A stretch of DNA of 64,000 nt from Minwuiaceae bacterium (GTDB lineage Bacteria > Pseudomonadota > Alphaproteobacteria > Minwuiales > Minwuiaceae), in contig JANQEE010000013.1 of NCBI GenBank assembly GCA_028278525.1, positions 62,001 through 126,000 of the forward strand. The letters are read 5' to 3'. Positions within the stretch are counted from its first letter, which is position 1. Each line of letters starts with the position of its first letter. Both the position numbers and the translations under genes were made by a program. The notes beneath the pieces are model-generated. The model had not been told where the DNA came from and searched no databases. It saw only the letters and a program-made list of their open reading frames with translations. Below are positions 53,138 to 53,365 of this stretch, one piece after another.

Positions 53138-53365
53138 TTAGAAGGCGAACAGCAGCAGCAGCGCGATCACCAGCGCGAACAGCGCGATCGCCTCGGTCAG
53201 GGCAAAGCCCAGCAGCACGTTGCCGAAAACCTTCGGCGCCGCCGCCGGGTTGCGCAGCGCCCCGATCACGAAACTGCCGAAGATATTGCCGATGCCGATG
53301 CCGACCCCGGCCAGTGCAATCGTCGCCAATCCGGCGCCGATCAGTTTCGCAGCTTCCGCTTCCAT
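53138..53365 (-). CDS. atpE: Second ATP synthase subunit c gene (orphan atpE)
   Basis: Encodes a 75-residue c subunit differing from the operon copy (14940-15167) only by V3A and S34I. The proton-binding E58 (ALTEAIALF), RNP loop and glycine repeat are all intact. At DNA level 24 of 76 codons differ, 22 of them silently, so it is neither an assembly artefact nor a recent copy. AAAGGAGA precedes ATG 53365. No other atp gene is nearby; it heads a two-gene unit with an unknown membrane protein and lies opposite in strand to ubiA-DCC and ubiD. It could feed alternative c rings or act at a different growth state. Confidence 0.95.

Follow-up and report, generated by a model that had tools for sequence, protein, structure and literature searches.

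Each bacterial ATP synthase contains 8-17 c subunits that are produced from one operon, a supply normally explained by intra-operon translation rates. The closest described systems depart from this scheme in different ways. In the acetogens Acetobacterium woodii and Clostridium aceticum, several atpE genes (atpE1, atpE2 and atpE3) serve one F1Fo, the c2 and c3 proteins of A. woodii being the same (PMC7911925); these c genes lie inside the atp operon, with a fused four-helix c1 and a 9:1 hybrid ring, and the c-ring of A. woodii requires AtpI (PMC8904574). In mammals, the dispersed genes ATP5G1, ATP5G2 and ATP5G3 encode the same mature c subunit (PMC8151517), and in Epsilonproteobacteria solo transcription units are found for subunits c and a (PMC5709465).

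The gene here described, atpE2, is a second, intact gene for subunit c (75 residues) of an F-type ATP synthase, and is found at positions 53138..53365 (minus strand) of the 64,000-nucleotide stretch of Minwuiaceae DNA that was analysed, hereafter the window. As in acetogens, multiple subunit c genes are present, and those genes provide a precedent for near-identical c genes feeding one ring; unlike them, atpE2 lies outside the operon, and its product is almost the same as that of the main copy. Separate and dispersed c genes are also a trait of the mammalian system, a further precedent of this kind in that three genes give one mature product, but there they are nuclear and differ in their targeting peptides, whereas atpE2 is bacterial and carries two residue changes. 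Transcription apart from the other atp genes, predicted for atpE2, is shared with Epsilonproteobacteria, where the solo c is, however, the only c gene, while atpE2 supplements an intact atpIBEF'F operon. The alternate F1Fo (N-ATPase) likewise brings a second c into alphaproteobacterial genomes, but atpE2 is far under the cut-off of its subunit c family (TIGR03322, 16.9 vs 130.85 bits) and no companion F1/Fo (atp) genes lie beside it. In the open-access literature, no report of an additional bacterial atpE outside the operon was found.

Identity and Integrity of atpE2

The minus-strand reading frame of atpE2 has an ATG start and a stop codon, and its product matches Pfam ATP-synt_C (PF00137) with E = 1.3e-13 and 51.4 bits against a cut-off of 24, also exceeding the cut-off of the NCBIfam F0F1 subunit C equivalog (NF005733, 89.4 vs 85 bits). 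The second atpE outside the operon proposed by the initial annotation is thus a real gene, and the features reported there as intact are indeed so: the glycine repeat GxGxGxG occupies residues 20-26, the RNP loop residues 38-40, and the active-site carboxylate is E58, in a hairpin that is co-linear with the subunits of solved c rings. The Na+-dependent motif Q.....ES/T, as defined for c subunits (PMC4320612), is absent; helix 1 reads GNIFGS and helix 2 LTEAIAL, and in lacking Gln and a Ser/Thr after the Glu they depart from the Na+ type.

The presumed parent copy, atpE1 (14940..15167, plus strand), is the subunit c gene of the Fo operon atpI-atpB-atpE1-atpF'-atpF (13668..16197, plus strand), which is intact and follows the usual alphaproteobacterial order. 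Considering that both copies are on the same 351-kb contig, C15, that they differ at 12% of their nucleotides, and that their surroundings are different and their flanks share no sequence, a mis-assembled duplicate, contemplated by the initial annotation, is ruled out. Regarding a mobile origin, atpE2 found no match in plasmid and viral collections, the plasmid search being one that may lose c subunits through its low-complexity filter, and no tRNA is near the locus.

Surroundings and Presumed Control Region

On one side of atpE2, ubiA (51474..52397, plus strand) is followed by a DCC1-like thiol-disulfide oxidoreductase gene (52397..52777, plus strand), which is convergent with, and overlaps by 4 nt the end of, the gene that follows atpE2. 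On the other side, ubiD (53522..55030, plus strand) is its divergent neighbour across a 156-nt intergenic region (53366..53521), the presumed control region. A Shine-Dalgarno sequence, AAAGGAG, is read 7 nt before the ATG of atpE2 (53373..53379, minus strand). The promoter region of its own that had been attributed to atpE2 is plausible in view of this divergent spacing and good ribosome-binding site, but no sigma-70-like promoter for atpE2 was found on the minus strand of the 156 nt; the plus strand displays one, at 53487-53514, facing ubiD. The same region contains the perfect, operator-like dyad TTACCTGAGAGGTAA (TTACCT-GAG-AGGTAA; 53447..53461), an exact match to which occurs nowhere else in the genome and in none of the other fetched loci. 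Since it was looked for after the fact, it is considered a candidate operator only, and it could serve ubiD rather than atpE2. An Rfam search returned nothing, and the fold of the leader RNA is ordinary (z = -0.46).

Distribution among Related Genomes

Subunit c is encoded by one copy per genome in all eight other genomes of the same family. The second copy is therefore missing from close relatives, which is one half of the combination that the initial annotation had named as speaking against its proposal. In one of these relatives (G001), ubiA is followed by ubiD after 40 nt with nothing between, and beyond ubiD come the same gamma-glutamylcysteine-ligase-like and rRNA-methyltransferase-like genes, which indicates that the site of atpE2 is empty in this genome. 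Among the best 80 c loci of related public genomes, subunit a adjoins c in 79, the remaining one being cut off by a contig end.

At the level of the class, 358 of the 385 genomes sampled have a subunit c match, and 21 besides the source genome have more than one, in line with the earlier statement that a second c is uncommon in alphaproteobacteria. Within the best ~150 matches listed, the source genome alone is represented by two; the more distant c pairs of the other multi-c genomes are outside these matches. As atpE2 is known from one genome, its distribution does not speak for long-term maintenance.

Divergence of atpE2 from the Operon Copy

The two REPLACEMENTS of atpE2 relative to atpE1 are V3A and S34I, so that the proteins are 97% identical, while 22 further codons differ silently; the counts initially given for both classes of difference are exactly reproduced. 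Altogether 27 of the 228 nucleotides differ, 23 of them at third positions. Nei-Gojobori estimates are 0.48 for dS and 0.025 for dN. A neutral model would make about 19 of the 27 nucleotide differences replacements, and 4 of them are (P = 1.6e-9). The purifying selection initially proposed for the protein is hence borne out, and with its reading frame intact and dN/dS at about 0.05, atpE2 is neither a pseudogene nor a decaying duplicate. Codon usage gives no support to a lower expression of atpE2, its codon adaptation index being equal to that of atpE1 (0.736 vs 0.743, rough values, as some shadow ORFs were present in the ribosomal reference set).

The silent changes are unevenly distributed between the copies. 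When polarised with four outgroups, they fall on atpE2 and atpE1 in ratios of 14:4, 14:2, 15:1 and 15:2, and with other outgroups the skew towards atpE2 is weaker (11:6, 10:5) or absent (7:7). The best tree pairs both copies, with a branch of 0.002 for atpE1 and 0.158 for atpE2, and both share L69 and L71, which are rare among relatives. The next-best placement in the nucleotide tree, atpE2 with locus L005, has a log-likelihood 2.4 lower when constrained trees are compared. As the silent changes are mostly on atpE2, the large silent distance is mainly fast drift of one copy, and the duplication probably postdates the separation from the sampled genera. The long co-existence suggested by the initial annotation is thus unsupported, the near-zero branch of atpE1 and the absence of a second copy in the eight same-family genomes both counting against it, and the protein-level convergence offered there as an option is unnecessary. 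Gene conversion was considered as well, silent differences being clustered in codons 1-42 (17 vs 5, P = 0.02), and was rejected because comparisons with most other species give the same skew. We read atpE2 as a duplication confined to its own lineage, in which silent sites were released and the protein was held.

Looking up both replaced residues in relatives, as had been proposed, reveals that both positions are variable. Among 39 distinct related c sequences, A, V, L, M, P, T and I all occur at position 3, the A3 kept by atpE2 being the commonest residue, and the residues seen at position 34 are S, A, Q, T, N and G, with I34 absent. The mitochondrial c of several animals has an Ile aligned with I34 of atpE2 (FGSLIIGYARNP). 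V3 is probably a change in the operon copy and I34 one in atpE2 and, judged from these alignments, neither replacement is at a constrained site. Since both positions are variable and Ile34 is the mitochondrial residue, a strong effect on the rotor is unlikely, and the earlier view of S34I as a rotor-changing residue is weakened.

The Neighbouring Membrane Protein Gene

Only 16 nt downstream of atpE2, and on its strand, is the gene of a 115-residue two-helix membrane protein of no known family (52774..53121, minus strand), a pairing overlooked by the initial annotation. Its reading frame has its own Shine-Dalgarno sequence and, among the six frames, the best coding score is +0.44 nats per codon, the next best being +0.08. 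Both genes probably form one transcription unit, as their spacing and shared strand suggest. The protein is predicted to fold as a helical hairpin whose second helix is long, in a poor model (pLDDT 73, pTM 0.39) for which a fold search found no match among solved structures. No Pfam or NCBIfam family is above cut-off for this protein, and no relative was detected in plasmid, phage and viral collections. The 385 class genomes contain one weak match outside its own genome, in a distant one, where 87 residues align at 30% (E about 5e-4) with the membrane portion at the N-terminus of a PAS histidine kinase, a similarity that could be due to composition. Its assignment as AtpI/UncI (PF09527) likewise found no support, BLASTP to the AtpI of the same genome giving E = 0.22 over 20 residues; both proteins have the same two-helix size, with nothing further alike.

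Other Rotary and Related ATPase Genes in the Genome

Only one pair among the ATP-synt_ab matches of the genome, on contig C47, looks like F1 alpha/beta. Two of the other matches are a type III secretion ATPase and FliI, the former being of the SctN family, above cut-off (contig C43, L159:1883-3253), and the fliI gene being separate (contig C52); those on contig C5 look V/A-type by sequence.

Contig C5 (L155:8-7099) carries a V/A-type ATPase gene set, its genes being named from sequence appearance alone, with two adjacent ATP-synt_C matches within it (C5:3403-3792). Thus named, they suggest that the cell seems to carry both F-type and V/A-type rotary ATPases. In addition, contig C37 contains at 47400-48437 (L115:7401-8437) a second subunit a together with a third, divergent F-type subunit c, likewise overlooked by the initial annotation. 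In this third c the carboxylate and RNP loop are conserved, GxAxAxG replaces GxGxGxG, and the closest relative among 116 genomes is 49% identical; in an alkaliphile, the c ring is widened by alanines at the GxGxGxG motif (PMC2914638). The a-c pair has no b, b' or F1 gene beside it, and sits behind a LysR/OxyR-type regulator and near a universal-stress gene and a Mrp/MnhA-like antiporter subunit that carries MbhD/MbhE domains (L115:1920-4220). Contig C37 is probably native because its murA has no second copy and shares 70-72% identity with the murA genes of the family.

Possible Role of atpE2

The account that we favour, and to which we give about an even chance, is that atpE2 is a lineage-specific duplicate supplying extra c to the same c-ring under separate control. 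In this account, the operon gene of subunit c would have been duplicated and its copy placed, along with an unrelated gene for a two-helix membrane protein, between ubiD and the DCC1-like gene that neighbours ubiA. atpE2 would then be read from its own control region, and its product would be a fully competent c subunit, most likely entering the same c-ring as the atpE1 product, given the single F1 alpha/beta pair of the genome. The benefit would be a c supply adjusted separately from the Fo operon. The 115-residue protein may help in c insertion or ring assembly, perhaps as a helper comparable to AtpI, or may merely share the transcript. What the sequences establish is the gene itself, its integrity, the selection acting on its protein, its absence from the relatives sampled and the order of the genes; expression, ring entry, the supply role and the partner role are inferred.

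The strongest competing explanation, possible although rather unlikely, is that the duplication was incidental and gave atpE2 no role of its own; it would be expressed at some level and kept clean since a faulty c would poison the ring, through selection that acts against damage rather than for a benefit. Its presence in a single genome and the location of both replacements at variable positions agree with this, and free silent drift with a held protein is also expected from dominant-negative selection alone. Nonetheless, complete loss would be an easier way out, and atpE2 has a good ribosome-binding site and precedes a second maintained reading frame.

A further reading, in which atpE2 would be a separately controlled c isoform with a dedicated new two-helix partner for making or tuning c-rings, is put forward as a distinctly unlikely proposal. 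It is less probable still that atpE2 and its neighbour form a membrane unit apart from the ATP synthase, such as a pore, a proteolipid scaffold or a regulated leak. The tight gene pair is certainly remote from all other ATP synthase genes, and its second member is a predicted membrane hairpin without family, with a long second helix, whose only weak match is a sensor kinase membrane anchor. On the contrary, atpE2 keeps every feature tied to F1Fo and 97% identity, when more change would be expected from a new role, and the model of its partner is poor (pTM 0.39) and without counterpart among solved structures.

Similarly improbable is the acquisition of atpE2 by transfer from an unsampled close relative instead of duplication. 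Such an origin would fit the unrelated flanks of the two copies and the retention of A3, the residue commonest in relatives, and grouping atpE2 with L005 costs just 2.4 log-likelihood units; but the copies are two residues apart, while the nearest other c, that of L005 (91%), differs at seven, the rare L69 and L71 are common to both copies, and plasmid and viral collections gave no match. Finally, isoform switching, by which I34 would alter the packing of the ring or its contacts within the rotor and thereby give rings of c2, mixed or pure, a different behaviour in some condition, is very improbable. None of the 39 distinct c sequences from related loci has I34, but position 34 varies among them and the mitochondrial c of several animals has Ile there.

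The finding matters less if atpE2 is a young neutral duplicate, which its single-genome distribution allows. An extra c gene that has a control region to itself and a membrane neighbour of no known family would offer a natural experiment on whether assembly of the ATP synthase is limited by the supply of c, and also on whether c isoforms that are almost the same combine in a single ring.
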